Below are positions 7,577 through 21,682 of a DNA stretch of 39,533 bases, one piece after another. Made by a program: the position numbers and the translations under genes. The first letter of the stretch is position 1; the number at the start of each line of letters is the position of its first letter. This stretch comes from Hyphomicrobiales bacterium (GTDB lineage Bacteria > Pseudomonadota > Alphaproteobacteria > Rhizobiales > Xanthobacteraceae), in the NCBI GenBank assembly GCA_018335895.1, contig JAGXQU010000176.1, positions 1-39,533 of the forward strand, given 5' to 3'. The notes under the pieces were generated by a model, which saw nothing but the letters and a program-made list of their open reading frames with translations, did no database searches and was not told where the DNA came from.

Positions 7577-7652
7577 GCCTAGGTAGCTCAGTTGGTAGAG
7601 CATGCGATTGAAAATCGCAGTGTCGGTGGTTCGATTCCGCCCCTAGGCACCA
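7577..7652 (+). tRNA. tRNA-Phe (GAA)
   Basis: Full cloverleaf by eye: acceptor GCCTAGG (7577-7583) pairs with CCTAGGC (7642-7648), the D arm holds AGCTCAGTTGGTAGAGC, the anticodon arm is TGCGA-TTGAAAA-TCGCA giving anticodon GAA, and the T arm is GGTGG-TTCGATT-CCGCC with one G-T wobble. Discriminator A is at 7649 and an encoded CCA at 7650-7652. It ends the housekeeping run; the glycan island begins just beyond it. Confidence 0.97.
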
Positions 7653-7689: not shown

Positions 7690-7722
7690 TGCCATCATGG
7701 CATTGCACTTGCCCGAGCGGGC
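7690..7722 (+). promoter_or_regulatory. Palindrome and GC hairpin upstream of rmlA
   Basis: The palindrome TGCCAT-C-ATGGCA (7690-7702) could be a protein-binding site, and GCCC-GAGC-GGGC (7711-7722), followed by GTTATTT, could be a terminator or the edge of the rmlA control region. The rest of the 116 bases between tRNA-Phe and rmlA shows no convincing promoter. Confidence 0.35.
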
Positions 7723-7768
7723 GTTATTTCAGTGTTAGAAGAATCCAAATTTTATTGAGGGCAGTGAA

Positions 7769-8647
7769 GTGAGCTGGAAAGGTCTCGTGCTGGCTGGCGG
7801 AACGGGGAGCAGACTTTTCCCGCTGACGCATCAATTCAACAAGCACCTGTTGCCCGTCTACGACAAGCCGATGATCTATTATCCGCTGACGACGCTCATG
7901 CTGGCGGGGATCACGGAATTCGTCATCGTATCCGATCCGGTTTCGCTGCCTCAGTTCGAGCGCTTTCTCGGCGACGGTTCGCAGTGGGGCCTCTCGATCG
8001 AATATGCCGAGCAGCTGAAACCCGGCGGTATCGCGGAGGGTTTGCTTGTCGCGGAGGAGAAACTGAGAGGCGCGCATATCGCGCTGATCCTCGGCGATAA
8101 TATTTTCTACGGCTCGGGGCTGCCGGCGGTGCTCCGCAAATCCTTGTCGGAAAGCAAAGGCGCCACGGTATTTTGCGTCGATGTCGCAGATCCGTCTTCC
8201 TTTGGCGTGGTGGAGCTCGCGCCGGACCTGAGGCCGGTGCGGATCGTCGAAAAGCCGAAGCAGTTTATTTCGCGGAATGCCGTTGTCGGTCTTTACCTGT
8301 ACCCCGCGGACGTCATGGGTATCGCCGCAAACCTCAAGCCGTCCGCGCGCGGCGAACTCGAAATCACCGACGTGAACCGGGCTTACCTCGAACAAGACCG
8401 CCTGACGGTAAGACCGCTCGGCCGTGGTGTCGCCTGGCTGGACGGCGGCACCACCGACAACCTTTTCAATGCCGCGCAGTACGTGAAACTGATCGAAGAA
8501 CGGATGGGCCTGAAAATCGGATGTCCGGAGGAAGTCGCCTGGCGCCTCGGCCTGATTACGCGCGAGCAAACCGAAAGCCTCGTTGGCCGCATGCCGAATT
8601 CGAGCTATCGCGCGTATCTGGACGGCCTGCTCGCGGGGGCGCAGTAG
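7769..8647 (+). CDS. rmlA: Glucose-1-phosphate thymidylyltransferase
   Basis: RmlA/RffH makes dTDP-glucose from dTTP and glucose 1-phosphate, the entry to dTDP-6-deoxysugars. The 292-residue length is standard. Motifs visible are LAGGTGSRLFPLT (nucleotide loop), KHLLPVYDKPMIYYPL, LGDNIFYG (metal-binding aspartate) and the VAWLDGGTTDNL segment. The start is a GTG at 7769 behind GAGGG (7757-7761); there is no better ATG, and the N-terminus matches the family. It is separated from rmlB (17.8 kb) by about 8 kb and lies on the opposite strand to rmlB and the aminotransferase, with which it must work. Confidence 0.94.
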   Translation: MSWKGLVLAGGTGSRLFPLTHQFNKHLLPVYDKPMIYYPLTTLMLAGITEFVIVSDPVSLPQFERFLGDGSQWGLSIEYAEQLKPGGIAEGLLVAEEKLRGAHIALILGDNIFYGSGLPAVLRKSLSESKGATVFCVDVADPSSFGVVELAPDLRPVRIVEKPKQFISRNAVVGLYLYPADVMGIAANLKPSARGELEITDVNRAYLEQDRLTVRPLGRGVAWLDGGTTDNLFNAAQYVKLIEERMGLKIGCPEEVAWRLGLITREQTESLVGRMPNSSYRAYLDGLLAGAQ

Positions 8648-8653
8648 CCCGCG

Positions 8654-9343
8654 CTATTGCGTGCGCCATAGCTGCCGGCAATCGGGGCCGGCGTTGAACA
8701 GCATGTCGAGCACGGAAACGGCAGGCTCGAATTCGCCCCACACCTGCGGGTAAGGCGGATAGGCTGGATACTCCATCCACTCGACCTTGATCCCCGCATC
8801 CGCAAAGAGGCTTTCGTCGAGATACGAGCGGGCGGAAGGTCCGCTCAGGTAATGGGTCGCGCCCGCTTTCCTGCAGATATCGAGCAGCCTTTCGCTTCGC
8901 GCGCCTTGCGGCTCGTAGCCGCGGTCGCGCGTGATCGCGGTGGAAATGCCGAGGATGCGCGAGATGCCCCGGAGAAAAATCTCGTTCGTTTCGGTGAGCA
9001 GGCTTTTCTCGCCGGCGAGGCGATAGAGCTGCTCGAACTGGGGTCCGAGTTCGGCGAAGAACGGCGCCCGCGCGTAGTTGGCGGCAAAGCTCCGCCAGTG
9101 CTTGTCGGCCCACGGCTCGCTGAACGACACCTCATCGATGGCCTGCTCGAACTTCGACTTCGTCGCGACCGGAATTGTAAGCCAGACCGGGCCGTTCGGC
9201 GTGACCAGCTTGTTCCTGTTGTGCCAGTGCCGCTTCGCGAACTGGACGGTATCGAAGATCACGTATTCGTCGCAGCGCGCGATCAGGTCAAAGAAACCGC
9301 GCCAGGGAATGTAAGCCGACTGGATGATGGCAATGCGTTTCAT
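8654..9343 (-). CDS. WbqC family protein
   Basis: A 229-residue soluble protein recognised as WbqC-like by the N-terminal IIQSAYIPWRGFFDLIARCDEYVI-type segment, the DTVQFAKRHWHNRNKL motif and the later THYLSGPSARSYLDE motif. WbqC proteins occur in O-antigen and natural-product clusters; the biochemical role is poorly defined, with an acyl- or aminoacyl-transfer step to amino sugars often suggested. Here it sits in a cluster predicted to make dTDP-Fuc4N, which fits an amino-sugar decorating step (inference). It converges on rmlA, with 6 bases between the stops, and diverges from the dioxygenase gene. Confidence 0.88.
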   Translation of the reverse strand: MKRIAIIQSAYIPWRGFFDLIARCDEYVIFDTVQFAKRHWHNRNKLVTPNGPVWLTIPVATKSKFEQAIDEVSFSEPWADKHWRSFAANYARAPFFAELGPQFEQLYRLAGEKSLLTETNEIFLRGISRILGISTAITRDRGYEPQGARSERLLDICRKAGATHYLSGPSARSYLDESLFADAGIKVEWMEYPAYPPYPQVWGEFEPAVSVLDMLFNAGPDCRQLWRTQ

Positions 9344-9423
9344 GGTTCAACTGGTACCAAGAAACTGCAGAGACAGTCACCTTCAACTTGGGCGGACACT
9401 TTGAAACACGGCAGTAGGCATTG

Positions 9424-9452
9424 TTGGCAAGGTATCGGTGGTGCATTATGCT
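9424..9452 (+). promoter_or_regulatory. Candidate promoter of the dioxygenase gene
   Basis: TTGGCA (9424-9429), a 17-base spacer and TATGCT (9447-9452) make a good match to a sigma-70-type promoter. Transcription would start near 9459, which rules out the GTG at 9438 as start of the following gene and favours the ATG at 9537. It lies in the 193-base region between the divergent WbqC and dioxygenase genes. Confidence 0.5.
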
Positions 9453-9536
9453 CGCCGCCTGCTCGACTTGGCGGGACATGATACCCGTTTCAGTCTGTCG
9501 AGCGCGTGTCTTGCTTCAGGCGGCGGCTCTCGAAAT

Positions 9537-10367
9537 ATGGAGATTGGCGTGAATATCCCCGCGGTCCAGCATTACGGCGTTCACGAGCGCAGGGTTAACG
9601 TCGACGAACTGGACTCGGCGGTTGAATATCTGCGCCGGTACGGATTTGCGATCGTGAAGTCCGGATTGAGGCCGGATGAAATCAAGGAAATCCGAGAGGC
9701 GTTCGATCGCGTAAATTCCGCTACAAAGAATACGTATGGGCTTGAGTCGCTGACGGCGATCGACGAACAGAATACAATTCGGCTTCCTTTGGCGCTGGAC
9801 GCGAGGTTTCTCAAGCTTGCGATGAATCCGATGATACTTTCCATCGGAAGGCGAATGATCGGAAAGAACATTCTGCTGAACCAGCAGAATGGCGTCATCA
9901 ATCCCGCCGGCAAGACCTACAATCAGGCGAAATGGCACCGCGACCTGCCCTATCAGCACTTCGTCAGTTCCCGGCCGCTGGCGATAAATGCGCTGTTTTG
10001 CGTAGACGATTTCACGATTGAAAACGGCGCAACTCTCGTAATTCCGAGTTCTCACCAGATCGAAGAATTTCCGTCAGACGAAGTCGTTCAGAAAGAGCAA
10101 AGGACTCTGGTGGCGGAGGCCGGCAACTTTCTGGTGCTTGATTGCATGGTCTATCACTCTGGCGGGCCGAACCGGACGAACACGGATCGCCGCGCGGTAA
10201 ACCACGTCTATACTACGCCGATCATTCGGCAGCAGATCGAGATATCTGGTTGTCTTGGCCCGGACTTCCCTGCGGACGCCGAGACCAAACAATTGTTGGG
10301 CTTCGGTTATGAGGGCATCCGTTCGGTCAAGGACTACCTTGAATCGAGACGGAAGAAAGCCAGCTAG
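9537..10367 (+). CDS. Phytanoyl-CoA dioxygenase (PhyH) family oxygenase
   Basis: A 276-residue protein of the PhyH family of Fe(II)/2-oxoglutarate oxygenases. The iron-binding triad is visible as His134-X-Asp136 (KWHRD) and distal His207 (VYHSGG), with Arg219 in NRTNTDRRAVNH positioned to hold 2-oxoglutarate. Such enzymes hydroxylate lipid, amino acid or sugar-linked substrates; in a glycan cluster it may hydroxylate the sugar or its acyl group (inference). The ATG at 9537 is preferred to GTG 9438 on promoter position. Base composition is more A/T-rich than flanking genes. Its TAG shares the CTAG tetranucleotide with the convergent gene's stop. Confidence 0.85.
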   Translation: MEIGVNIPAVQHYGVHERRVNVDELDSAVEYLRRYGFAIVKSGLRPDEIKEIREAFDRVNSATKNTYGLESLTAIDEQNTIRLPLALDARFLKLAMNPMILSIGRRMIGKNILLNQQNGVINPAGKTYNQAKWHRDLPYQHFVSSRPLAINALFCVDDFTIENGATLVIPSSHQIEEFPSDEVVQKEQRTLVAEAGNFLVLDCMVYHSGGPNRTNTDRRAVNHVYTTPIIRQQIEISGCLGPDFPADAETKQLLGFGYEGIRSVKDYLESRRKKAS

Positions 10368-11302
10368 CCGAGATTGAGCGAATCCGGATTTGTCAGTCTG
10401 GCTATTCCAAATCCGGTTAAACCGTAACCGCTTCCATTATAGAGCATGTAAAATTCGCCGCCTTGCTTGAAAACGCAAGGATAGGTGCGCGTGCCCTCCG
10501 TCCACGCATCGCTCTGTCCAAATTGAAGAGCGCTGTCGGCGCGGCGCCACGAACCGTCGTTGTGCTGCCAAGCGAAACCCAAACTGTAGTTCGGCGAGCG
10601 CCGTGCGTACCACATCAATAGTCTACCGTTGTGCGACAATACGGTAGGTCTCGAGATCGCGTACTCCTCGGGAGAAGTTGCGCGGTCCAGGCCTACGACA
10701 ATGGCCTTCTCGGGAGTCCAATGGATGCCGTCGTTTGACGCCGCCCTTTTCAGGACGTGCTCCATTTCCAGGCGCCTTTCTCCCCATAAAAGATGGGATC
10801 CGAACCACATCTGCCAGGCATCGCCAACGCGATAGACCCAAGGGTATCCGACGCAGATCGGGTTCTCGATCGTCCTGCCGACGATCGGCACGTTGGAAAG
10901 TTTTTCAAACTTTCCACTATCGCCTTTTGCGATTGCGAGCCCGATGAAGTTTGCGAAAGGAACGCTGTCGCCTTTGGTCCAGCCTAGATAGTAGGCGAAG
11001 AGATCGCCGCCTTCCCGAATAATGCAAGAAATGCTTGCGCCGTCGGCGTCGAACTCGCCGCGCGCGCCGGGAGAAATAAAAGGCCCCTGAACTTCGGAAG
11101 TCAGACGGACGTTGTCTCCCTGAATCTCGACATCGATCGCAGCAACATGCGAGCGTCCGAATTCATCGCGTGGCGAGAAGAAGATGGTGCCGCGCTGACC
11201 GGCGCGCTCCAGATATGTCGGATATGCGGCATGCGTTTTTGCCCACGGCAGATCTAGCGGCGCCTTCACGAGCTGCCCGAGCGGCTTCCAGTTCTGCTGC
11301 AT
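10364..11302 (-). CDS. Predicted beta-propeller protein of unknown function
   Basis: A 312-residue protein without signal peptide, so cytoplasmic. It shows repeated blocks of the type seen in five-bladed propellers of glycoside hydrolase clans (GH32/43/62/130-like): AYPTYLERAGQRGTIFFS, ASISCIIREGGDLFAYYLGW, YPWVYRVGDAWQMWFGSHL, ISRPTVLSHNGRLLMWYARR and TYPCVFKQGGEFYMLYNGSGYG, each pairing a short acidic/aromatic strand with a W/Y-rich strand. I cannot assign catalytic acids. It may be a sugar-binding or sugar-processing factor of the glycan pathway. The ATG at 11302 was chosen; an in-frame TTG at 11317 is possible. It follows the NeuD-like gene on the same strand by about 22 bases. Confidence 0.7.
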   Translation of the reverse strand: MQQNWKPLGQLVKAPLDLPWAKTHAAYPTYLERAGQRGTIFFSPRDEFGRSHVAAIDVEIQGDNVRLTSEVQGPFISPGARGEFDADGASISCIIREGGDLFAYYLGWTKGDSVPFANFIGLAIAKGDSGKFEKLSNVPIVGRTIENPICVGYPWVYRVGDAWQMWFGSHLLWGERRLEMEHVLKRAASNDGIHWTPEKAIVVGLDRATSPEEYAISRPTVLSHNGRLLMWYARRSPNYSLGFAWQHNDGSWRRADSALQFGQSDAWTEGTRTYPCVFKQGGEFYMLYNGSGYGLTGFGIARLTNPDSLNLG

Positions 11303-11324
11303 CGATATTTCTTTCAAGCCAATT

Positions 11325-11990
11325 TCAGATCTGCTTGATACGCCGGCTCGGTATCTTTCGCTTTTCGGTGAATCCGTTTGGAAGATAAACGGATTCAGGC
11401 TCCGTGCTTTCCCGGATCAGCGAACCGGCCGCGAGCAGCGAATAGGGCGCTATCTTTACATGGTCGACAATTGTGACGTTGACGCCGGCAAAGCTGTTGG
11501 CCCCGACCGTTACTCCGCCTGAAACGACGACATGCGAGGTAAGAAATACATTGTCTTCGATTGTCGAGTGATGTCCGATATGATTGCCGCTCCACAACGT
11601 GACATTGTTGCCTATGCGAACGAATGGCTGGAGCGTGTTGTCTTCAAGAATGAAACAATTCTCGCCGACGCTCGTGGCGAAGTTGGTTGCGTCCGGGCTC
11701 ACGTAAGTCGTGAGCGGATATCCCATATCGCGCATCGTTACGACCTTCTCTGTCCTGAGGTCGTTCATTCTCGTAAAGGAAAGCGCAACGAAACCGTAAT
11801 TTTCCGTAGGCGGAGCTGCACGTGCGATCTCCTCGACCGCGACAACAGGCGCGCCTTCGAACGTATCTTCTTTCACGTACTGCGCATCGACCGTAAATGC
11901 CGCAACCTTGCGGCCAATACGACGAAAGTAAAACGCTGCGACTTGAGCCATCTCGCCGGCCCCGAACAGGACAATTGGCAAATCCTTCAT
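11325..11990 (-). CDS. NeuD/PglD-like hexapeptide-repeat acyltransferase
   Basis: A 221-residue protein with an N-terminal small Rossmann-type domain (LPIVLFGAGEMAQVAAFYF, residues 3-22) and a C-terminal left-handed beta-helix of hexapeptide repeats (from about residue 110: VGENCFILEDN, VRIGNNVTLWSG, IEDNVFLTSHVVVSGG, VTVGANSFAGVNV). His in GNHIGHHS is the likely catalytic base. The family includes NeuD O-acetyltransferase and PglD, which N-acetylates UDP-4-amino-sugars, so acylation of the 4-amino group of a dTDP-4-amino-dideoxyhexose is a reasonable inference. ATG 11990 gives the family's normal length; an in-frame ATG at 12038 would add 16 residues with no match. Confidence 0.85.
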   Translation of the reverse strand: MKDLPIVLFGAGEMAQVAAFYFRRIGRKVAAFTVDAQYVKEDTFEGAPVVAVEEIARAAPPTENYGFVALSFTRMNDLRTEKVVTMRDMGYPLTTYVSPDATNFATSVGENCFILEDNTLQPFVRIGNNVTLWSGNHIGHHSTIEDNVFLTSHVVVSGGVTVGANSFAGVNVTIVDHVKIAPYSLLAAGSLIRESTEPESVYLPNGFTEKRKIPSRRIKQI

Positions 11991-12082
11991 AGCGGTCTCG
12001 TGAAAGAGTTCATCGGGGCGAAAGCGGGACATCGACATGCGATGCTTGCTGCTAACATACTGTAATGCTAGTGCTATTTAAA

Positions 12083-12098
12083 GGGCATTTTTGTGCCC
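12083..12098 (+). promoter_or_regulatory. Small hairpin between divergent genes
   Basis: GGGCA-TTTTTG-TGCCC lies in the short region between the NeuD-like gene and the methyltransferase gene, within the latter's probable leader. The surrounding bases are A/T-rich and should hold promoters for both directions, but I see no clear -35/-10 pair. Confidence 0.3.
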
Positions 12099-12121
12099 CA
12101 CGATACGTGCTGGGCGCGAAG

Positions 12122-13312
12122 ATGGTGCTACGCAATCTCAATTGCCCGATTTGCAGAAGCGTCCATGTTCTGCCCCTTACAAATCCAAATGCGCAGAGCT
12201 CCATGATCAGCGATGGTGCAATCGTTCCTCGCCCTTTAGGCAAGGCTTCCTGCAACGATTGCGGCCACGGCTTTCATGTCGAGCCGATACAGGACAATCA
12301 ACTGCGCGAACTCTACGGCGATGCGTACAGTTTGGGGTTACGGGATAAGAGCGCGGATGCGGATCGCGCCTCAGGTTACTGCGAACATATTTCCGAGCAT
12401 CTTGGTTCGTTGGACCGGCATATAGAGCGCGGGCATGTTGTCGTGGAGTTCGGTTGCGGAACTGGTCACCTTCTGCGGAAGATTTCGCAGAAGTGGCAAC
12501 CACGGAGACTCGTCGGAATCGAACCGGCGCCAAAGCTCGCGAACAAGGCGAGAGAACTCAACGGTAAATATGTCGAGATCATAGAATCCTACGCGGAATC
12601 GAGCGTGCCACTGGTGAAAGACGCTGATTTTGCAATTTCCGTGAACGTGATCGAGCATGCGCTGGACCCCGTCGCGTTCCTAAAGACATGCCGGGATTCG
12701 ATAAACGAGCGCGGCACAATTCTGGTTATCTGTCCTGACGGAAACTATCCTCACTCGGAGCTGCTCTTCTACGATCACGTGTCCTCGTTCTCCGTGACGT
12801 CTTTCGAGCGCGCGGCAAGTCAGGCGGGTCTCAAGATGCTGCACTCCGCTACGTTGGGAAACGGGCAAGAAGGCTTCCAGCTGTTTGTGCTTGCCCCGGA
12901 CGGTTCAGCACAGGAGCCGAGCGCTGGCTCGGCGGCTTCGTTTCAGGAGCTTTCGGAGGGGCGCGGCCGGTATCTCAAAGGGTGGGCCACGCTTGAGCAG
13001 GGCGTTCGAAATCAGATCGGCAGCGATCGATACGCCATTTTCGGAATCGGCGAGTATGCGGACTTGCTAAGCGCATACTGCCCGGGGATTATCGGCGCGG
13101 CTGAATGTTTCGTGGTAGATAATGCACCGCAGCCCGAATATCGCGGCAAGCCGCTTCTGTCGCTGGATGCGTTCAGGCAAGAGAAGCCAGATACAAGGAT
13201 TCTTGCTGCGGTAAATCCGCGAAGCTGGAAATACCTAATAGAAAGGCTGCGAAGCGGCAGCGTTGTGGCCAACCATCCTTACGAGTTTAGCGAATTGCGA
13301 AGCGCACTATGA
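12122..13312 (+). CDS. Class I SAM-dependent methyltransferase with zinc-finger N-terminus and Rossmann-like C-terminus
   Basis: A 396-residue, three-part protein: a zinc-ribbon-like start (Cys8, Cys11, Cys44, Cys47), a SAM-binding domain with motif I VVVEFGCGTGH (about 107-116) and motif IV region NVIEHALDPVAFL, and a C-terminal domain beginning YAIFGIGEYADLL that resembles a small nucleotide-binding fold. This architecture is that of sugar C-methyltransferases such as the TylC3/NovU group (zinc-binding, methyltransferase and C-terminal domains), so methylation of a deoxysugar is suggested but not proven. ATG 12122 is chosen because an upstream ATG (12065) adds 19 residues before the zinc finger. 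Its TGA overlaps the next gene's ATG (ATGA). Confidence 0.85.
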   Translation: MVLRNLNCPICRSVHVLPLTNPNAQSSMISDGAIVPRPLGKASCNDCGHGFHVEPIQDNQLRELYGDAYSLGLRDKSADADRASGYCEHISEHLGSLDRHIERGHVVVEFGCGTGHLLRKISQKWQPRRLVGIEPAPKLANKARELNGKYVEIIESYAESSVPLVKDADFAISVNVIEHALDPVAFLKTCRDSINERGTILVICPDGNYPHSELLFYDHVSSFSVTSFERAASQAGLKMLHSATLGNGQEGFQLFVLAPDGSAQEPSAGSAASFQELSEGRGRYLKGWATLEQGVRNQIGSDRYAIFGIGEYADLLSAYCPGIIGAAECFVVDNAPQPEYRGKPLLSLDAFRQEKPDTRILAAVNPRSWKYLIERLRSGSVVANHPYEFSELRSAL

Positions 13313-14265
13313 ATCAAGCTGAACGCCCGCCGGCCGAACGCGGCGAAACTCCTAGGTTGAGTATCGTCACCACGGCCTTTCGATCAGAGGACTGTATCCA
13401 GGAGTTTCTACGCCGCGCCTTGGCGGCTGCGTCTGCGATAGACGAAAGAGTGGAATTGATCGTAGTCGACGACGGCTCGCCTGATCGCTCCGCTGAAATT
13501 GTGCGTGACGCGGTTGATGGCGACAAGCGGATTGTGCTCGTCCAGCTAAGCAGGAACTTCGGTCACCACAAAGCACTGATCGCCGGCCTCGAAGTATCTC
13601 GTGGCGACATCATCTTCGTTATCGACAGCGACCTCGAAGAGGAGCCGGAAAACATCAAGGCCATGCACGACTTGATGAAAGCCGAGAACACCGACGTCGT
13701 ATTGAGCATCCAGAAAATGCGAAAAGGCGGACGGATCGAAAGGCTGACGGGCCGGCTGTTCTACTGGATCTTCAGCAAGCTGTCCGAGGTCAATCTGCCT
13801 CGAAACGTATCGACGATGCAGTTGATGACAAGAAGATATCTCAAGTCATTCTTGCTGTTTCGGGATCGCAATCCCGTCTTCGTGCCATTGGGTTTGCTGA
13901 CAGGTTACAAGCGGTCGCTGCACGAATTCGAGAAGGGAAGCAGAAAGCAGACGACGTACTCGTTTCGCAGGCGTTTGTCTTTGTTGATGCTGGCCGTGAC
14001 GAGCTTCACCGCGCGGCCTCTTTTTCTGGTGTTCTGGTTCAGCACGATTTTATCGCTGTCCGGCTTTCTATTCGGCGCGTTCGTGATCGTTCGTGCGCTG
14101 TTTGGTCCGGTGCAGGACGGCTGGACGTCGATCATCGCCGCTATCGTGTTCTTCTCGAGCGTGAATGCGTTCTTCACCGGCGTGTTGGGACTCTATATCA
14201 AGCTGATCCTGGACGAGGTGAAAGACCGGCCACGATCGATCGTTCAGGAAATTTACAGGCGCTGA
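13309..14265 (+). CDS. Polyprenyl-phosphate glycosyltransferase, family 2 (ArnC/GtrB-like)
   Basis: A 318-residue membrane-anchored GT2 enzyme. The GT-A domain shows VVDDGSPDRS (52-61), the NFGHHKALIAGL segment (83-94) and the metal-binding DSD (106-108) in VIDSDLEEEPENI. Two C-terminal membrane helices (about 238-262 and 274-300) follow, ending with the family's LGLYIKLILDEVKDRP motif. These features are those of ArnC, GtrB and dolichol-phosphate mannose synthase, which load a sugar from a nucleotide donor onto undecaprenyl phosphate on the inner face of the membrane. The likely donor here is the dTDP-amino-dideoxyhexose made by the surrounding genes (inference). It overlaps the upstream methyltransferase by 4 bases and precedes the small membrane protein by 10. 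Confidence 0.92.
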   Translation: MNQAERPPAERGETPRLSIVTTAFRSEDCIQEFLRRALAAASAIDERVELIVVDDGSPDRSAEIVRDAVDGDKRIVLVQLSRNFGHHKALIAGLEVSRGDIIFVIDSDLEEEPENIKAMHDLMKAENTDVVLSIQKMRKGGRIERLTGRLFYWIFSKLSEVNLPRNVSTMQLMTRRYLKSFLLFRDRNPVFVPLGLLTGYKRSLHEFEKGSRKQTTYSFRRRLSLLMLAVTSFTARPLFLVFWFSTILSLSGFLFGAFVIVRALFGPVQDGWTSIIAAIVFFSSVNAFFTGVLGLYIKLILDEVKDRPRSIVQEIYRR

Positions 14266-14275
14266 TGGCCCGGAC

Positions 14276-14641
14276 ATGACACCAGTTTTGCAATTGCTCG
14301 CAGCCATCGTTCTCGTCACCTACTCGAACGTCATCGTGAAAAGTAGGGTCGGCGCACTGGGTGGCGTCGATCAAAACGTAAGCTCTGTGAATTTACTGCT
14401 CCGGCTTGTTGCGGATCAGCTGATCTGGACAGCCGCGGTCGCGACAGTATTGGGCATGGGGCTTTACGTCTTATCCCTGCGGCATCTCAGTCTCAGCGTC
14501 GCGCAGCCGGCACTGGCGCTCGTCTTTGTCGCGGTTCCGCTCGCGGCCGCGCTGTTTCTCGGCGAGAATCTTTCCGCGTTGCGCCTTACGGGACTTTTCG
14601 TCATCGCGCTCGGCGTCCTGATCGTATTCCTCTCGGCATGA
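14276..14641 (+). CDS. EmrE/ArnE-like four-helix membrane protein, probable lipid-linked sugar flippase component
   Basis: A 121-residue protein almost entirely made of four hydrophobic helices (about 4-21, 47-67, 73-94, 100-120), with the DMT/SMR-type motif LSLSVAQPALALVFVAVPLAAALFLGE in the third helix and loop. This is the layout of ArnE/ArnF and related EamA-like proteins that flip undecaprenyl-phosphate-linked amino sugars across the inner membrane. Its position directly after the ArnC/GtrB-like gene supports that role over drug export. Its stop overlaps the next start (ATGA at 14638-14641). Confidence 0.85.
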   Translation: MTPVLQLLAAIVLVTYSNVIVKSRVGALGGVDQNVSSVNLLLRLVADQLIWTAAVATVLGMGLYVLSLRHLSLSVAQPALALVFVAVPLAAALFLGENLSALRLTGLFVIALGVLIVFLSA

Positions 14642-15555
14642 GCACCGGAGAGCGCCTCTGTCCGCATTGCAGTGCTGGTGAGACGATCGGCGCCGCGGAA
14701 AAAATCTGGCCGGATTCCTGGCGTTGCGGCTCGTGCAACCATCGCGTCGAATCCCGCGACGGGATTCCGATGTTCGCGCCCGCGCTTGCCGACACCGAAG
14801 TCGGGATGAATCCATTGGGTTTTGAGCCGCTGGCCGGCCGGGAAGCCGGCCATTTCTGGTTCGAACCGCGCAATCGGCTGCTGACTTCCCTCATCGGGAG
14901 ATATTTTCCGGCGTCGAGAGATTTTCTCGAGGTGGGCTGCGGCACCGGGTTCGTACTCTCCGCCGTCGCGAAATCGAAAAGCTGGTCCAGGATCGTCGGT
15001 TCGGAGCTGCATCCAGCCGGTCTCGCCTATGCGCGTAAGCGCGCCGACAGCTCCGCCGAATTCGTGCAGATGGATGCGACCCAAATTCCGGCGCGCAACG
15101 CCTTCGATGTCGTCGGCGCTTTCGATGTGCTCGAACACATCCCGGACGACGAAAAGGCGCTCGCCGAAATCTTCAGCGCGCTGAGACCCGGAGGCGGCGC
15201 GGTGCTCGCGGTTCCGCAGCATCCGTTCCTGTGGTCGCGCGAAGATGAAATCGCGCTCCACCAACGCCGCTACCGCAGGAACGAGTTGCAGGAGAAGGTG
15301 CGCCGCGCCGGTTTCGAAATCCTGTTCTCGAACTCCTACACATCGTTCCTGCTGCCGCTGATGGCGGCAAGCCGGCTTATGTCGCGCAACCGGGCGCCGA
15401 TCTCAAGCGAAGAATCGAACCCGGAGTTCAATTTGCCGCCCGCGCTGAATGCAATCCTGCGCGGTGCGTTACAGGCGGAAGTGACGTTGAGTTTGCTCGG
15501 GATGCCGCTGCCGGCGGGCGGTTCCAGAATTGTGGTCGCACGAAAGCCGCGCTAG
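14638..15555 (+). CDS. Class I SAM-dependent methyltransferase with N-terminal zinc ribbon
   Basis: A 305-residue protein: a zinc ribbon (Cys8, Cys11, Cys30, Cys33), then a methyltransferase domain with motif I FLEVGCGTGFVL (about 96-107) and an acidic post-I loop, DVVGAFDVLEHIPDDEKAL, and a C-terminal helical segment. It belongs to the Methyltransf_11/23 type often found in glycan clusters; the methyl acceptor could be the sugar, alone or lipid-linked. It is translationally coupled to the small membrane protein and converges on the aminotransferase gene with 10 bases between stops. Confidence 0.87.
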   Translation: MSTGERLCPHCSAGETIGAAEKIWPDSWRCGSCNHRVESRDGIPMFAPALADTEVGMNPLGFEPLAGREAGHFWFEPRNRLLTSLIGRYFPASRDFLEVGCGTGFVLSAVAKSKSWSRIVGSELHPAGLAYARKRADSSAEFVQMDATQIPARNAFDVVGAFDVLEHIPDDEKALAEIFSALRPGGGAVLAVPQHPFLWSREDEIALHQRRYRRNELQEKVRRAGFEILFSNSYTSFLLPLMAASRLMSRNRAPISSEESNPEFNLPPALNAILRGALQAEVTLSLLGMPLPAGGSRIVVARKPR

Positions 15556-15565
15556 CGCATTGCGG

Positions 15566-16705
15566 TCACGTGCGGCGGACGATGTCGTGCACGGCTTCGG
15601 CGACGATTTCCACCTGGTCCCCGATGCCTGTCCATAACGGCATCCGGACTAATCTGGCATGCATTTCTTCCGTAACGGGAAGCGTTCCGTGCACGCGGGT
15701 GTACTTTTTCCCGGCGGGCGAGTCGTGCAGCGGAACGTAATGAAAAACCGCGTTGATGCCGCGCGCGGCGAGTTCGCGGATTACCCGTGTCCGCTCCTCA
15801 ACGTCGGGCAGCAGAATGTAATAGATGTGCCCGTTGTGCGTGACGTTACCCGGGATCGTCGGACGCACGATCGCCCCGACCTGCTCGAGGGAAGCGAAGC
15901 GTTCGTGATAGGCGTTCCATGACGCCAGCCGGTCTTCGATAATCCGATCCGCGGAAGAAAGCTGCACGTGAAGAAACGCGGCGATCAGTTCGCTCGGCAG
16001 GAACGAAGATCCGTGATCGACCCAGGTGTATTTGTCGACGCGGCCGTCCTGAAACTCGCGCCGGTTGGTTCCCTTCTCCCACAACACATGCGCCTGTTCC
16101 GAGAAGTCCGGCCGGCTTGTGACAAAGGCGCCGCCTTCGCCGGAGACGACGTTCTTGGTTGCATGAAAGGAGATGCATCCGGCGTCGCCGATGGAGCCCG
16201 CGGGCTTTCCCTCGTATTCTGAGAGCAGTGCCTGCGCTGCATCCTCGACGACGACAAGGCCGTGCCGCTTCGCGATCTCCATGATCTTCTTCATTTCGCA
16301 GGGCACGCCGGCATAATGCACGACGAAGATCGCCTTCGTTCTCGGCGTGATCGCGGCTTCGATCAGGTTCTCGTCGAGGTTCAGGGTATCGCGCCGGATG
16401 TCCACGAATACGGGTGTTGCGCCGCGCAGGACGACCGCATTCGCGGTGGACACGAATGTGAAGGAGGGCATGATGACTTCGTCGCCGGGCACGAGATTAC
16501 AGAGGAGTGCTGCCATCTCGAGCGCGCCCGTGCAGGAATGCGTGAGCAGCGCCTCCGTCACATGAAGACGATCCTTGATCCACTGCTGGCAGAGTTGCGT
16601 GAAGTGGCCGTTTCCGGTGAGTTCCCGCCGCTCCAGCACGGAGCGCAAGGCATCGAGCTCTCCGCCGACGAGCGGGGGCCAGTTGAAGGGAATGCCTTTT
16701 TTCAT
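15566..16705 (-). CDS. rffA: dTDP-4-amino-4,6-dideoxygalactose transaminase
   Basis: RffA/WecE/FdtB converts dTDP-4-keto-6-deoxyglucose to dTDP-4-amino-4,6-dideoxygalactose (dTDP-Fuc4N) using PLP and glutamate. The 379-residue DegT/DnrJ/EryC1/StrS-fold protein has the PLP aspartate in EDAAQAL (Asp155) and the Schiff-base Lys184 in SFHATKN. The segment WEKGTNRREFQDGRVDKYTW followed by DHGSSFLPSELIAAFLHVQL is diagnostic for this subfamily. ATG 16705, 14 bases after the rmlB stop, matches the family start; an earlier in-frame start would overlap rmlB. It closes a three-gene minus-strand operon. Confidence 0.94.
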   Translation of the reverse strand: MKKGIPFNWPPLVGGELDALRSVLERRELTGNGHFTQLCQQWIKDRLHVTEALLTHSCTGALEMAALLCNLVPGDEVIMPSFTFVSTANAVVLRGATPVFVDIRRDTLNLDENLIEAAITPRTKAIFVVHYAGVPCEMKKIMEIAKRHGLVVVEDAAQALLSEYEGKPAGSIGDAGCISFHATKNVVSGEGGAFVTSRPDFSEQAHVLWEKGTNRREFQDGRVDKYTWVDHGSSFLPSELIAAFLHVQLSSADRIIEDRLASWNAYHERFASLEQVGAIVRPTIPGNVTHNGHIYYILLPDVEERTRVIRELAARGINAVFHYVPLHDSPAGKKYTRVHGTLPVTEEMHARLVRMPLWTGIGDQVEIVAEAVHDIVRRT

Positions 16706-16718
16706 CGGCGCTGCGGTT

Positions 16719-17807
16719 CTACTTTGCCGTCGCGGATGCCGCGAGACGGCCCAGACGCTCACCCTTGTAGCCGGTCGCCCGCAGGCGCTCCCACCATGCT
16801 CTGTTGTTCAGGTACCAAAGCACGGTGGATCGCAGGCCATCCGCAAGGCTGATGGCCGGGCGCCATTGCAGGTCGCGTTTCAGCTTGCTGGAATCGATGG
16901 CGTAGCGCGCGTCGTGTCCCGGGCGGTCGGTCACGAACTCGATCAGCGACGCATGTGAGCCGCGCCCGTTGTCCGGAAGCAGTTCGTCGAGAATTTTGCA
17001 GAGCGCGTGGATCAGATCGATGTTGGAGCGCTGGCAATCCGCCCCGACGTTGTAGGACGCGCCGGGCTCACCGCGCTCGGCGATCAGCGCGAGCGCGCGA
17101 GCATGATCTTCGACATGGATCCAGTCGCGCACATTGGTGCCGCGCCCGTAAACCGGGATTGGTTTTCTCCCCATGGCGTTGAAGATCACGGTCGGAATGA
17201 GTTTCTCGGGATACTGATAGGGACCGTAGTTGTTCGACGAATTTGAGAGAACCGCCGGCAGGCCGAACGTGACATGCCACGCATTCACGAGATGGTCGCT
17301 CGCAGCCTTGCTCGCCGCATAAGGAGAGTTCGGGCGATACGGACTTTCTTCCGTGAACAGCCCCTCGGCACCCAGGGAACCGAACACTTCGTCGGTCGAG
17401 ATGTGATGGAAGCGAAAGCTGTCGCGCTCGTTCGGGCCGAGCGTGCGCCAGTATTTCGTGGCAACCTCAAGCAGGACATAGGTGCCGACGATGTTGGTCT
17501 CGATGAACGGGGCCGGGGAATCAATCGAGCGGTCGACGTGGCTTTCCGCGGCCAGATGCATGACCGCGTGCGGCTTGAAGTCCTCGAAAACCCTCTGCAT
17601 CGATCCGGCATGGGCGATGTCGGCGTGCTCGAAACGATAACGGTTGCTGCGTGAAACCGGCTCAAGCGAATCGAGGTTTCCGGCATAGGTAAGTTTGTCG
17701 ACGACCAGTACCTGGTGCGGCGTGTGCTCGATCAGGTGGCGGACGACGGTGGCTCCGATAAAGCCGGCGCCGCCAGTCACCAGAAAACGCTTCGACTCAC
17801 TATTCAA
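16719..17807 (-). CDS. rmlB: dTDP-glucose 4,6-dehydratase
   Basis: RmlB dehydrates dTDP-glucose to dTDP-4-keto-6-deoxyglucose with tightly bound NAD+. The 362-residue extended-SDR protein shows [18 protein letters not shown] (8-25), [11 protein letters not shown], the active-site triad region STDEVFG (Thr138, Asp139, Glu140) and Tyr163-X3-Lys167, plus [14 protein letters not shown]. The start is taken as TTG 17807: it lies 8 bases inside the preceding gene's stop, has AAGG upstream, and gives the exact family N-terminus, whereas the longer frame adds 23 unrelated residues. Serves the amino-sugar branch because no rmlC or rmlD is present. Confidence 0.94.
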
Positions 17808-19785
17808 CGGGGCATACCTTCGCGTCGCCGGGCAGGCGCTCCAGCACGCGCCAGCCGTTCTTGTCCGGGCGAGCACAATAGCGAAACTGCAAGGCCGTCA
17901 ATAGCCGTTCCTCGGCTCTCCGTGTGGCCGCAGGCGGCACTCCGAACGAGCCGTCGCTATCCCGCAGGATGAACTGCGGCTTGAGACGGTCGATCCTCGC
18001 AGCCAGAAGCGAAAGCTCGGCATTGGTTTTCGCGGACGCGGACAGGCTCGGCGCGGGCAGGGAAGGGCTGATGCCCGTCATTCGGCGCATCGCCAAACTC
18101 ACATCCGAAAAGTAAATCAGCGACCCCTGCGCCGCGATCGACTTCAGGGCTTCCGCCTTGGCGAGAAACTGTTTGCAGTAGATGTCCGGCTTATCTATCG
18201 CCATGCCGTCGGCGCAGCCATGACGCCAGCCGATTGCGAATCTCGATGGCTGCAGCGGGTCGGCAAGATAGCGCGCGTTGAACTTTGCGCTGATGGGAAC
18301 GACAAGGACTCCGGCAACCGCGACGGCAAGAAGGGTCCGCGTTTGATCCGCGATGGCCGGCGCGAGAAACAGCATGAACAGCGCTGCTGCCGTCCACGAA
18401 TTTTCGTCGAGCGGACGGCTGACGTAGTAAATCATGATCAGCAGGATCATGGCCGCAATCGCGGCATCGGTCGAAGCGGCGCGCGCACTTCTTTCGCCGA
18501 AGATCGATCGCAGCGCCTCTACGAAGACGTATCCCGCGCAGCACAGGATAACGAGGATATGCGGGCGGAAGTGTATTCTTGCGCCGTTGAAGCCACCCGC
18601 GACAGCAAAGATGGCGGCGAGCAGGTCGCCTGCTTGTGTGGGGAACGGAGCCTTTCCGAAAACCGCGGAATAGATCAGCACATATAGTAAGAGCACCACG
18701 ATGCCCGCGGCAGCCCCGGCCGCGAGCGCGCGGAGATAGCCGGTAAGCGTTTCGCCGCGCATGCGGACGAGCCACGCAAGCGCCATGCCGCCGGTGACGA
18801 CAATTCCGACCTCAAGATTGGTGAGGAGCGCGCATGCCGCGCAGAAGCCAAAGCAAAAGCTGAAGAATGTTGCGGAGGTTCGCTCGGTCCAGCACAGCAC
18901 GAGGACCGAGACCGGCAGGAACAGGAACCGCACCGCGGATTGCGTGGGCTTGATGACCGACTCTCCCGCCGTCGAGAGCCACGGCGCAATGCACAAGCTC
19001 ACGAGCAGCAGCGCCAGCAGCCTGCCGGATACCGGGCTTTCTCGGGTTCGCATCCATGCCGCGCCGAGGAATAGCAGATAGCCCGCGATCTGAACGACCT
19101 GTACGAGCCTCCACTGGTCGAGAATGGAAAGCGCGTGGCCGGATTTCGCGAACATGCCGACAATCGTTGGAAACAGGAGGCCATAGTAAGGATAAATATC
19201 CTTGAAGAATTCCTGTCCGTTTGCGAGCCGGTCACCCTGCGAGAAGAAGGGTTCGTAGTGCTCGTTCTGTCCAAGAAACTCCGCAATGGTCAGCACGGGC
19301 GAGCCCGCGATGCCCGGGATCAGCGAGAGCAGAGCAACCGCGGCAACGAAGAGAGCAAGGATTACCTTGTAGCCGCGCTGCGCGAGATAGGCCGCGAGCG
19401 CGACCAAGAGGATATAGAGGTGCCCTTCATGCAGTCTCGCAAGACTGGCGAGACACGAAGCCGCGAGAGCGAGGAGAACAATCCGCACGGCGAGCTTGTG
19501 CCGATGATCGTCTTCTGACGGGAATAGGTTTCTCAGAAGCGGAAGCAGCAACGCGCCTACGATAAGGGCGCCGAGAAAAACGTAATAGGCGTAGCGCTGC
19601 GGCAAGCTGTCGAAAGACGACACCTGATGTTCGGGCAAGAGCCAGGACAGGCGTTCCGGATCGGGCCGGACGATCGTCAGAAACGCAATGCCGAGCAGCA
19701 GAGCGGCTGCGACGACTGTTCCTGAGATGATGTCGAAGCGACCGAGAAGCCGGTGCGAATTCTGCACAAAATTTCGAACGGACAT
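17800..19785 (-). CDS. Large multi-spanning membrane protein, probable GT-C type glycosyltransferase
   Basis: A 661-residue protein with about 11-13 hydrophobic helices over residues 20-500 and a soluble C-terminal domain of about 150 residues with several cysteines ([23 protein letters not shown]), probably periplasmic. The segment [27 protein letters not shown] (about 185-210) resembles the G-X-P-hydrophobic-RD-X-YGPL loop common in bacterial GT-C-like enzymes, although the exact acidic catalytic motif is not certain. Such proteins use polyprenyl-phosphate sugars as donors outside the membrane, which would complete the ArnC-like and ArnE-like pair. It heads the operon with rmlB and rffA. 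I cannot name a specific family. Confidence 0.65.
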
Positions 19786-19900
19786 TTATTTATAATCGCA
19801 ATCGGTTACGGCCTGAAAGCAATATACCCGAAATCCCAGCCCTGCTAACTCGGCCGGCCGAAGCTGCGCGGCTTAAAGGCCGCGGACGATCGCAGGCGGC

Positions 19901-19990
19901 GGCCTCTGAACCTATGGAACGAAACCCCTTCCGGGTGGGATTCTTCCGCTTTCTTGACGCTGATTCACCCCGGCCATAGGTTCGCCGGCC
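19901..19990. repeat. Inverted repeat flanking the right end of the glycan island
   Basis: GAACCTATGG (19908-19917) is repeated inverted as CCATAGGTTC (19974-19983), 56 bases apart. Extending outward, the arms 19901-19917 and 19974-19990 match at 14 of 17 positions (GGCC ends conserved). The right arm overlaps the -10 of the candidate catIJF promoter. It could be an operator pair or a long-loop hairpin; with no transposase nearby, insertion-sequence ends are unlikely. Confidence 0.55.
19954..19982 (+). promoter_or_regulatory. Candidate promoter of the catI-catJ-pcaF operon
   Basis: TTGACG (19954-19959), a 17-base spacer and TAGGTT (19977-19982) form a fair sigma-70-type promoter about 65 bases before catI. 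The -10 lies inside the right arm of the inverted repeat at 19974-19983, so a protein bound there would block transcription. Confidence 0.5.
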
Positions 19991-20046
19991 TAAAAAAATC
20001 AATGCGGGAGCGGTCGTGCTCCGCAGGCAATCGGTGGAAACTTTCA

Positions 20047-20895
20047 ATGGCTGAATTTCTCTCGCTCGCGCAGGCGATCGAAGCGAACGTGAAGGATGGC
20101 GACGCGGTTGCCATGGAAGGCTTCACGCATCTCATTCCCTTTGCGGCGGGGCATGAAATCATCCGCCAGAAACGCAAACGCCTCTCGCTGATCCGCATGA
20201 CGCCGGATCTGATTTACGACCAGCTGATCGGCATGGGCTGCGCCGAGCGCATGACGTTTTCCTGGGGCGGCAATCCGGGCGTCGGCTCGCTGCACCGTTT
20301 CCGGGACGCCTACCAGAACGGCTGGCCGAACCAGATCGAGATCGTCGAGCATTCGCACGCCGCGATGGCGAACGCTTACGATGCTGCGGCGGCAGGGCTG
20401 CCATTCGCGGTATTCCGCGGCTACCGCGGAGCGGAACTCCCGCGCGTAAATCCGAGCATCAAAGAAGTTATTTGCCCTTACACCGGCGAGAAGCTTGCGA
20501 CAGTGCCTGCGGTAAAGCTTGATGTCGCGATCATCCACGCGCAAAAAGCGGACAGGAAGGGCAACGTGTTGCTCGAAGGGATCGTCGGCGTGCAGAAGGA
20601 AGCGGTGCTGGCTGCAAGGCGCTCGGTCGTCACGGTCGAAGAGATCGTGGACGAACTCAATCCACCGTCGCCGAATTCGGTCGTGCTGCCGAGCTGGACT
20701 GTGAAGGCGGTGGTGCAGGTGCCGGGCGGCGCCCACCCTTCCTACACCCACGGCTACTACAAGCGCGACAACGCCTTCTATAAAGCGTGGGATGAGATCG
20801 CGCGCGAGCGCGATACTTTCACCGCGTGGATGGATGAGAACGTGCTCCGGAAAGGCCCCGAAGTGTTCGCGGCACACGCGAAGAAGGTGGCCTGA
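20047..20895 (+). CDS. catI: 3-oxoadipate CoA-transferase, alpha subunit
   Basis: With CatJ, it transfers CoA from succinyl-CoA to 3-oxoadipate in the beta-ketoadipate pathway for aromatic compounds. The 282-residue protein has the family-I transferase features GDAVAMEGFTHLIPFAAGHEIIR, the SWGGNPGVGSLHRFR loop, and DVAIIHAQKADRKGNVLLEG. Length and sequence resemble Pseudomonas CatI (glutaconate CoA-transferase-like branch) rather than the shorter PcaI. The ATG at 20047 follows a possible GGTGGAAAC ribosome site. It is followed by a 2-base gap and catJ. Other acyl substrates (e.g. branched oxo acids) cannot be excluded. Confidence 0.86.
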   Translation: MAEFLSLAQAIEANVKDGDAVAMEGFTHLIPFAAGHEIIRQKRKRLSLIRMTPDLIYDQLIGMGCAERMTFSWGGNPGVGSLHRFRDAYQNGWPNQIEIVEHSHAAMANAYDAAAAGLPFAVFRGYRGAELPRVNPSIKEVICPYTGEKLATVPAVKLDVAIIHAQKADRKGNVLLEGIVGVQKEAVLAARRSVVTVEEIVDELNPPSPNSVVLPSWTVKAVVQVPGGAHPSYTHGYYKRDNAFYKAWDEIARERDTFTAWMDENVLRKGPEVFAAHAKKVA

Positions 20896-20897
20896 CC

Positions 20898-21674
20898 ATG
20901 AGCCAGACCTTCACGCCGAATGAAATGATGACCGTTGCCGCCGCGCGTGCGCTCACGAACGACGACGTCTGCTTCGTCGGCATCGGCGCGCCCTCGGCGG
21001 CCTGTAATCTCGCGCGCCACACGCACGCCCCCGGCATTGTCCTGATCTACGAATCCGGTACGCTGGAAACGCGGCCGAACGTGCTGCCGCTCTCCATCGG
21101 CGACGGCGAGCTTTGCGAAACCGCGCTCACGACCGTCTCGGTGCCGGAGATGTTCCGCTACTGGCTGCAGGGCGGGCGTATCACCACGGGTTTTCTCGGC
21201 GGCGCGCAGATCGACCGCTATGCCAATCTCAACACCACCGTTGTTGGCCCTTATGAGAAGCCGAGCGTACGGCTTCCGGGCGGCGGCGGCGCGCCGGAGA
21301 TCGCGACAAGCTGCGGCCAGATCTTCATCACCATGGCGCATTCCAAACGCGCCTTCGTGGAGAAGATCGACTTCTTCACGTCGCTCGGCCACGGCGAGGG
21401 CGGCGACAGCCGCAAGAAACTCGGCGTCACGACCAAAGGCCCGACCAAGGTCATCACCGATCTGTGCGTGATGGAGCCGGACGACAAGACGAAGGAACTC
21501 ACGGTCGTCTCGCTGCACCCTGGGGTCACCAAGGATCAGGTGATCGCCGCGACCGGCTGGCAGATCAAGTTTGCGCCTGATGCCGGCGAAACACCGCCGC
21601 CGAACGAAACCGAACTGAAAGTTCTGCGCGAATTGCATGCGCGTACCAAAGCCGCCCACGGCGGCAACGCCTGA
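20898..21674 (+). CDS. catJ: 3-oxoadipate CoA-transferase, beta subunit
   Basis: A 258-residue partner of CatI carrying the catalytic glutamate (Glu52 in [12 protein letters not shown], where family members form the gamma-glutamyl-CoA thioester). Further family segments are the [20 protein letters not shown] motif and [15 protein letters not shown]. Length matches CatJ of Pseudomonas. It sits between catI and the thiolase with spacings of 2 and 8 bases, so all three form one operon. Confidence 0.87.
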
Positions 21675-21682
21675 AGGAGCGA

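Follow-up and report, generated by a model that had tools for sequence, protein, structure and literature searches.

Gene content of the island and its predicted sugar donor

The sequence analyzed here, called the window below, is one entire contig (JAGXQU010000176.1, 39,533 bp) of the Hyphomicrobiales bacterium assembly GCA_018335895.1, which comprises 3.1 Mb in 191 contigs and is 93% complete. Its subject of interest is an island of sugar genes at positions 7769 to 19785 (~12 kb), with both borders inside the contig, which an initial annotation made from the letters alone had read as a possible three-component system delivering a modified amino-dideoxy sugar. Searches against the Pfam and NCBIfam families recovered all of the genes named in that annotation, each at the position given for it. 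The island consists of the following genes, with S-adenosylmethionine abbreviated as SAM, glycosyltransferase fold class C as GT-C, and the two methyltransferases designated MT1 and MT2.

7769..8647, + strand: RmlA, glucose-1-phosphate thymidylyltransferase (NTP_transferase E=1.4e-56; TIGR01207 355.7 bits, just under the cutoff of 360.65)
8654..9343, - strand: WbqC-family protein (PF08889 E=2.8e-73)
9438..10367, + strand: PhyH-type dioxygenase with a presumed tailoring role (PF05721 E=5.7e-26)
10364..11317, - strand: GH130-like protein, predicted beta-propeller (weak matches, Pfam E=0.065 and NCBIfam E=0.0028, both far below cutoff)
11325..12038, - strand: NeuD/PglD-like sugar N-acyltransferase (TIGR03570 135.1 bits, under the cutoff of 160.8; Hexapep E=3.2e-17)
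12065..13312, + strand: MT1, SAM methyltransferase with a Cys-rich N terminus (Methyltransf_23 E=8e-16)
13309..14265, + strand: GT2, GtrB/ArnC-class polyprenyl-phosphate glycosyltransferase with C-terminal membrane helices (PDB alignments)
14276..14641, + strand: small four-helix EamA/ArnF-like flippase candidate (EamA E=6.7e-6, just under cutoff; ArnF model E=1.7e-6, below cutoff)
14638..15555, + strand: MT2, SAM methyltransferase (Methyltransf_11 E=2.3e-19)
15566..16762, - strand: WecE/RffA-class aminotransferase, predicted to form dTDP-Fuc4N (NCBIfam NF008687)
16719..17876, - strand: RmlB, dTDP-glucose 4,6-dehydratase class (GDP_Man_Dehyd E=5.6e-83; Epimerase E=1.8e-64)
17800..19785, - strand: 661-amino-acid multispanning protein whose C-terminal domain is soluble; GT-C transferase candidate (unmatched in Pfam and NCBIfam)

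As listed, the starts of RmlB and the aminotransferase overlap the neighboring genes, and true starts near 17804 and 16705, respectively, are likelier. In two pairs of same-strand genes, the frames share 4 bases (13309 to 13312 and 14638 to 14641). The reading frames of the island are open over their full length, and in the six families that were aligned, the window mostly keeps the residues conserved in at least 90% of the rows.

The aminotransferase passes the curated NCBIfam cutoff for deoxythymidine diphosphate (dTDP)-4-amino-4,6-dideoxygalactose transaminase (NF008687) with 539.6 bits versus the 375 bits needed, and its match to WecE in the PDB (6blg, E=4.3e-121) stands well ahead of that to the next class (E=1.6e-46). 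RmlC had no match in the assembly, although 11 of 14 control genomes gave one; rhamnose synthesis is therefore an unlikely role for RmlA and RmlB. From their families, RmlA, RmlB, and the WecE homolog would make dTDP-linked 4-amino-4,6-dideoxygalactose (dTDP-Fuc4N), as the initial annotation had proposed; this predicted product is backed by the curated cutoff, the similarity to the solved WecE, and the conserved neighborhoods described below.

Predicted loading and flipping genes in a cassette shared across phyla

Enzymes of the GtrB and ArnC classes load single sugars onto polyprenyl phosphate. The GT2 of the island aligns with both over nearly its full length, from residue 13 to 316 with PDB entry 5ekp (sll0501; E=7.1e-41) and from residue 15 to 317 with ArnC (9hwj; E=2e-34), and it has a DxD motif and C-terminal helices, the features expected of a polyprenyl-phosphate monosaccharide synthase. 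Phage relatives of the protein (117 records) include annotated GtrB genes that adjoin GtrA. By its class, the enzyme would act in the cytoplasm to attach the sugar to polyprenyl phosphate, and the alignments together with the conserved neighborhoods support the loading role originally assigned to it. A second GtrB-like GT2 is encoded on contig C145 of the same genome (locus L129, 2817 to 5323), where it adjoins a 10-helix, 556-amino-acid protein without a Pfam match; the two are perhaps a second system of the same kind.

The neighborhoods of related GT2 genes were compared in 80 loci, the best 80 of at least 552 confirmed relatives, chosen by GT2 similarity with a five-row profile that was itself built from relatives whose neighboring genes had already been seen. 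These loci bear 16 phylum names (NCBI), many belonging to metagenome bins, and the gene calls in them were mechanical. The controls were 20 loci of GT2 paralogues, 27 to 33% identical to the query and hand-picked from weaker matches; all came from the window's own family, two of them from its own genome, and their stretches of 7 to 18 kb were below the length of most test loci, which reached 21 kb. Homologs of WbqC were found in 67 of the 80 loci, of WecE in 53, of the small flippase in 51, and of the NeuD-like and GH130-like proteins in 50 each; among the tailoring genes, MT2 was found in 23, PhyH in 21 (including all eight of the loci with MT1), and MT1 in 8. Counting the first five as partners, all five were present in 26 loci, four in 16, three in 17, two in 10, one in 6, and none in 5, which gives at least three partners in 59 of 80. 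The corresponding counts for the 48 loci longer than 20 kb were 19, 9, 11, 6, 1, and 2. Loci with four or five partners (42 of 80) represented eight named phyla, with 32 from the Pseudomonadota and one locus unassigned. No partner was present in 16 of the 20 controls and one partner in the other 4, and WbqC, WecE, the NeuD-like and GH130-like proteins, and MT2 were absent from all 20 control loci. The grouping is beyond chance, since distant bacteria have much of the gene set and the control loci do not.

Gene order is also partly preserved. WbqC directly precedes GT2 in 40 of 79 loci, the NeuD-like gene is followed by the GH130-like gene 30 times, and the GH130-like gene is followed by the flippase gene 19 times. 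Several of the closest GT2 genes within the window's own family have the same neighbors, and annotated cassettes on plasmids of Rhizobium sp. strain Q54 (a conjugative plasmid) and Peteryoungia keep the same gene order. Judged by these recurring homologs, the predicted donor, loading, and flipping parts are a cassette conserved across several phyla, and no description of it was recognized in the open-license literature searched.

Proteins of the EamA/ArnF type and of the GtrA type have both been proposed as flippases of polyprenyl-phosphate sugars. Counted at a looser threshold than the partners and, as in the partner count, with a profile that included the window protein, the small-flippase slot of the 80 loci contained only an EamA/ArnF-type protein in 27, only a GtrA-type protein in 24, both in 1, and neither in 28 (Fisher p = 4e-5 for exclusivity, a value that ignores kinship). 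A Pfam check of ten slot proteins placed five of five in GtrA (PF04138) and five of five in EamA, all above cutoff, and profile comparison detected no similarity between the two cassette families. A quickly built GT2 tree of the labeled loci implies at least 10 switches between the types. The nearest named relatives of the window (L049 to L051, with GT2 proteins 57 to 58% identical) have the GtrA type where the window has the EamA/ArnF type, and the Rhizobium sp. strain Q54 plasmid has a GtrA-type protein at the place taken by an EamA-type protein on the Peteryoungia plasmid. The small membrane protein of the window matched a cassette profile built without it at E=1.1e-18, versus 4.7e-6 for the genome's own small multidrug resistance (SMR) protein, and it matched neither the cassette GtrA profile nor GtrA in Pfam. 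By this profile match, and by the GtrA-type proteins that occupy its slot elsewhere, it has the sequence hallmarks of a small flippase. We infer a flipping role for the slot protein from the repeated exchange of two proposed flippase families, which is good evidence of a genetic kind, and in the window the EamA/ArnF-like protein would flip the lipid-linked sugar. The initial annotation's suggestion of a dedicated small flippase thus gains from both the conserved neighborhoods and the replacements.

The remaining genes suggest how the sugar may be modified. NeuD/PglD-like proteins N-acylate amino sugars. The WbqC protein of the window retains most of the residues conserved among its relatives and has no relative in the PDB. 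The O antigens of Shigella dysenteriae 7 and Escherichia coli O121 presumably correspond to each other. One article, citing work on S. dysenteriae 7, links the WbqC domain to an O-antigen cluster and describes WbqC proteins as functionally uncharacterized (PMC5532660), and a review passage reports N-acetylglycyl-4-amino-4,6-dideoxyglucose (N-acetylglycyl-Qui4N), citing the "Shigella-like" E. coli O121 (PMC3210612). Together, these reports give a lead toward an aminoacyl role for WbqC, and our guess is that it acts on the 4-amino group. The NeuD-like and WbqC proteins may both acylate that group, and the methyltransferases and PhyH may tailor the sugar or its acyl group. Eleven loci (L055, L058, L061, L063, L067, L076, L084, L109, L117, L122, and L125) carry a cluster of AMP-ligases together with a cluster of short-chain dehydrogenases, and four of them (L061, L076, L084, and L109) also carry an acyl carrier protein cluster, each cluster being identified from one or a few members checked in Pfam; the AMP-ligases and acyl carrier proteins suggest a dedicated supply of acyl chains for the sugar.

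The island of the window lies between a tRNA gene on its left and coenzyme A (CoA)-transferase/thiolase genes on its right.

7577..7652, + strand: tRNA-Phe(GAA) (ARAGORN), left-hand border of the island and its probable insertion site

Its G+C content is 0.585, versus 0.628 and 0.633 for the flanks. The tRNA-Phe site was compared in seven genus mates. In four of them (G023, G063, G104, and G121), a block containing two ATP-binding cassette (ABC) ATPases, confirmed in one mate to include a periplasmic binding protein, comes after the tRNA, and the same CoA-transferase/thiolase genes come next, so that the sugar island stands where these mates have the ABC ATPase block. In a fifth mate (G085), an integrase and tricarboxylate-transporter genes follow the tRNA, and ~64 bases 3' of that tRNA match the window; in the other mates, the match stops at the tRNA. 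The G861 sequence ends shortly past tRNA-Phe, and G137 gave no match. No integrase was found among the island genes scanned with Pfam, and no copies of parts of the tRNA were found within positions 7701 to 22000 of the window. The site looks like an island hotspot in the genus, and given this site and the plasmid copies of the cassette, horizontal acquisition of the island is part of the explanation that we consider probable as a whole.

The 661-amino-acid protein and the proposed slot of the final transferase

The 661-amino-acid protein has 11 to 15 predicted helices, depending on the threshold, and its gene directly precedes those of RmlB and WecE on the same strand. In a five-partner locus (L080), WecE is followed by a GtrII protein (E=5.7e-16), and on the conjugative Rhizobium plasmid, RffA is followed by a PMT_2 protein that scores below cutoff (21.2 versus 26.1 bits). 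Among ten relatives of the 661-amino-acid protein whose surroundings were examined, two are encoded directly beside a cassette WecE and one near WbqC. Ten sequences of the family all share Glu52, His176, and two Cys residues in the C-terminal part. Topology, position, and the equivalence of the slot make this protein a candidate for the final GT-C transferase, which from its position might transfer the sugar to an acceptor outside the cytoplasm, as happens in the Gtr and Arn systems.

Several observations weigh against this assignment. The protein has no Pfam family at E values up to 0.1 and no NCBIfam match. A three-row profile of its family found nothing in the PDB, and a ten-row profile found one unconvincing match (E=0.23). 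The AlphaFold models are poor, with a predicted local distance difference test score (pLDDT) of 45 from a single sequence and 37 from three sequences. Profile comparison showed no relation between the family and four other clusters of cassette membrane proteins, and no homolog was found in 148 other genomes of the bacterial family. Of the seven other relatives in the set of ten, six share a second conserved locus and one is found in neither setting, and an Asp that is nearly invariant in the family (at least 9 of 10 sequences) is replaced by Asn174 in the window. The second context (L045, L164, L166, L167, L168, and L171) contains a 246-amino-acid GT2, an SIS isomerase, an epimerase, a thiamine pyrophosphate (TPP) enzyme, and an LPG_synthase_TM protein, as checked in Pfam for L045.

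Sneathiella is alphaproteobacterial, and the 661-amino-acid family is present in 12 of 25 genomes of the order to which it belongs. In a sample of 337 genomes of the class, one relative apart from the window protein was full length (E=1.2e-22), and four more matches were short and weak. A two-row profile matched the window alone in a sample of 398 genomes of the phylum; across the family, class, and phylum samples, a member from that order was the one strong match other than the window. In addition, no match was found in the named-genome peptide scan or in the plasmids searched.

We scanned 84 large membrane proteins encoded near cassettes (82 of the 87 listed, that of the window, and that of L052). 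The family tables cover only the 25 commonest families, of 30 for these proteins and of 132 for the other genes treated below. The matches included PMT_2 (3 proteins), GT87 (2), YfhO (2), GtrII (1), PMT (1), DUF6044 (1), Polysacc_synt_3 (4), and Polysacc_synt (3), along with several unrelated transporters, and at least 38 proteins had no family match. Large membrane proteins vary from one locus to the next, in keeping with a changing acceptor. One of them (L050, 4314 to 6365) has a DCC1-like thiol-disulfide oxidoreductase domain, a family matched by 5 of the 84. For the membership of a three-component system, then, the loading enzyme and the flippase held up on their sequences, while the third component proposed in the initial annotation stays a candidate, put forward on topology, position, and slot equivalence. 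The system is likely complete in the window.

Alternative readings and known systems

Whether the sugar would be added singly or built into a polymer bears directly on the function of the island. The Wzx family PF13440 had no match in the assembly, and 14 of 14 control genomes have one. Wzx, Wzy, and an initiating transferase are all missing from the island genes, the genome as a whole not having been searched for initiating transferases or for PF01943. No Wzx/Wzy locus, which would have counted against the original interpretation, adjoins the island within the contig. Elsewhere, the genome encodes one Wzy_C protein (contig C166) and one PMT_2 protein (contig C178). Of the 136 listed noncassette genes around the 26 complete cassettes, 106 were scanned, and these included 20 methyltransferases, 7 short-chain dehydrogenases, 5 AMP-ligases, 4 GNAT proteins, and 3 proteins of the Glycos_transf_2 family; small families are absent from this table, so that it may miss isolated glycosyltransferases of other kinds. 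The lack of matches to RmlC and PF13440 in the assembly and the low count of Glycos_transf_2 proteins bear out the earlier argument that the sugar serves as a single decoration.

Considering all of this, we think it probable that the island encodes a three-component extracytoplasmic glycosylation system for a tailored (N-acylated and methylated) 4-amino-4,6-dideoxy sugar of the Fuc4N type. Some of the counts go against this reading, beyond those already given for the 661-amino-acid protein. RmlA or RmlB was found together with WecE in just 15 of 80 loci at the thresholds used, the 28 loci without a small flippase are not all truncated, and GtrA-type proteins were also found in 4 of the 20 control loci. 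In addition, the EPS273 locus of Pseudomonas stutzeri has, by its published description, WbqC, a GT2, and a WecE-like protein within an exopolysaccharide locus that contains Wzx (PMC5532660).

The EPS273 precedent leads to an alternative in which the island is the sugar-supply or branch module of an ordinary Wzx/Wzy locus, with the GT2 acting in the cytoplasm to add Fuc4N to a lipid-linked unit under assembly and the remainder of the O-antigen or exopolysaccharide locus placed elsewhere in the genome. In the account of that locus, WbqC, a 309-amino-acid GT2, and the WecE-like protein stand beside Wzx-like, ligase-like, and other glycosyltransferase proteins (PMC5532660), and the Wzy_C protein on C166 as well as the Polysacc_synt_3 and Polysacc_synt proteins among the large membrane proteins, both of them Wzx families, would also suit this alternative. 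We nevertheless regard it as improbable, both for the module and for a remainder located elsewhere, as neither PF13440 nor RmlC was matched in an assembly that is 93% complete, the GT2 is a near full-length GtrB/ArnC homolog with C-terminal helices, only 3 of the 106 other genes near complete cassettes belong to Glycos_transf_2, and 51 of 80 loci have a small flippase from either of two families. Less probable still is that the island is a decaying or chimeric set of sugar genes without a joint function in this strain. Its genes do lie on both strands, and no integrase was found among the scanned genes although a genus mate has one at the site; however, intact frames with mostly conserved residues in the six aligned families, two 4-base overlaps between same-strand genes, and a gene set that matches the cassette of other phyla all speak for function.

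A further alternative leaves donor synthesis, loading, and flipping as proposed and gives the last step to another GT-C protein, for instance the PMT_2 protein on C178, with the 661-amino-acid protein as an accessory. This would account for the missing GT-C sequence match, the unusable AlphaFold fold, and the Asn at the near-invariant Asp position, and a PMT_2 protein is indeed encoded in the same genome. However, the gene stands directly before RmlB and WecE on their strand, relatives lie beside a cassette WecE in two other genomes and near WbqC in a third, the equivalent place in other cassettes holds a GtrII or a weak PMT_2 protein, and the two invariant Cys residues would suit an extracytoplasmic domain. 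We consider this alternative unlikely. A broader proposal, which we advance tentatively and regard as possible but doubtful in its full extent, is that phylum-crossing mobile cassettes take methylated, N-aminoacylated Fuc4N from polyprenyl phosphate and deliver it to acceptors that are specific to each locus, that WbqC adds the aminoacyl group (e.g., N-acetylglycyl), and that two unrelated flippase families and unrelated final transferases are swapped between cassettes, including new GT-C families such as that of the 661-amino-acid protein.

If the island encodes a three-component system for a Fuc4N-type sugar, its nearest counterparts share some of its features and lack others. The Gtr systems for O-antigen glucosylation of Shigella and Salmonella phages (GtrA, GtrB, and a serotype-specific Gtr) likewise combine a GtrB-class loader and a small flippase with large membrane proteins that differ; a GtrA-type protein is present in 25 of 80 cassette loci and a GtrII protein once, and phage GtrB genes are among the GT2 relatives. 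However, Gtr uses glucose, whereas the cassette is larger and is predicted to use an amino-dideoxy sugar derived from dTDP-glucose with acyl and methyl tailoring, and the window itself has no GtrA. The Arn system of lipid A (ArnC, ArnE/F, and ArnT), in which an amino sugar is carried on undecaprenyl phosphate, shares with the window an ArnC-class enzyme and an ArnF-like flippase. The window has the WecE branch of dTDP sugars instead of uridine diphosphate (UDP)-linked 4-amino-4-deoxy-L-arabinose (Ara4N), its island genes have no match to ArnA or ArnD, and its 661-amino-acid protein has no sequence similarity to ArnT (PMT/PMT_2). In enterobacterial common antigen (wec), WecE makes dTDP-Fuc4N and is the closest solved relative of the window aminotransferase, but there the sugar is polymerized via Wzx/Wzy, and the locus is not known to have a GtrB-class enzyme or small flippase.

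The three-component pentofuranose systems described by Kelly et al. (2024, PMC11127046) use a lipid-linked monosaccharide, an ArnE-similar flippase, a GT-C protein founding family GT136, and an auxiliary epimerase. The first two would be shared with the system proposed for the window; however, their donor comes from phosphoribosyl pyrophosphate (PRPP) and, as described there, involves no amino sugar, and the term Fuc4N appears nowhere in the main text of that paper. The EPS273 cluster of P. stutzeri 273 resembles the island in uniting WbqC, a GT2, and a WecE-like aminotransferase, but it is described as an 18-gene exopolysaccharide locus with Wzx-like, ligase-like, and other glycosyltransferase proteins (PMC5532660).

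Known three-component systems handle glucose, Ara4N, and pentofuranoses, and a cassette for an acylated, methylated amino-dideoxy sugar would add a sugar class to these. The natural interchange of EamA/ArnF-type with GtrA-type proteins at a single position provides independent genetic evidence for a common function. The cassette also gives a handle for finding GT-C families that are missed by sequence searches, and its context suggests a testable role for the WbqC proteins. If the proposed function is true, this conserved cassette points to surface modifications that have so far not been looked for.

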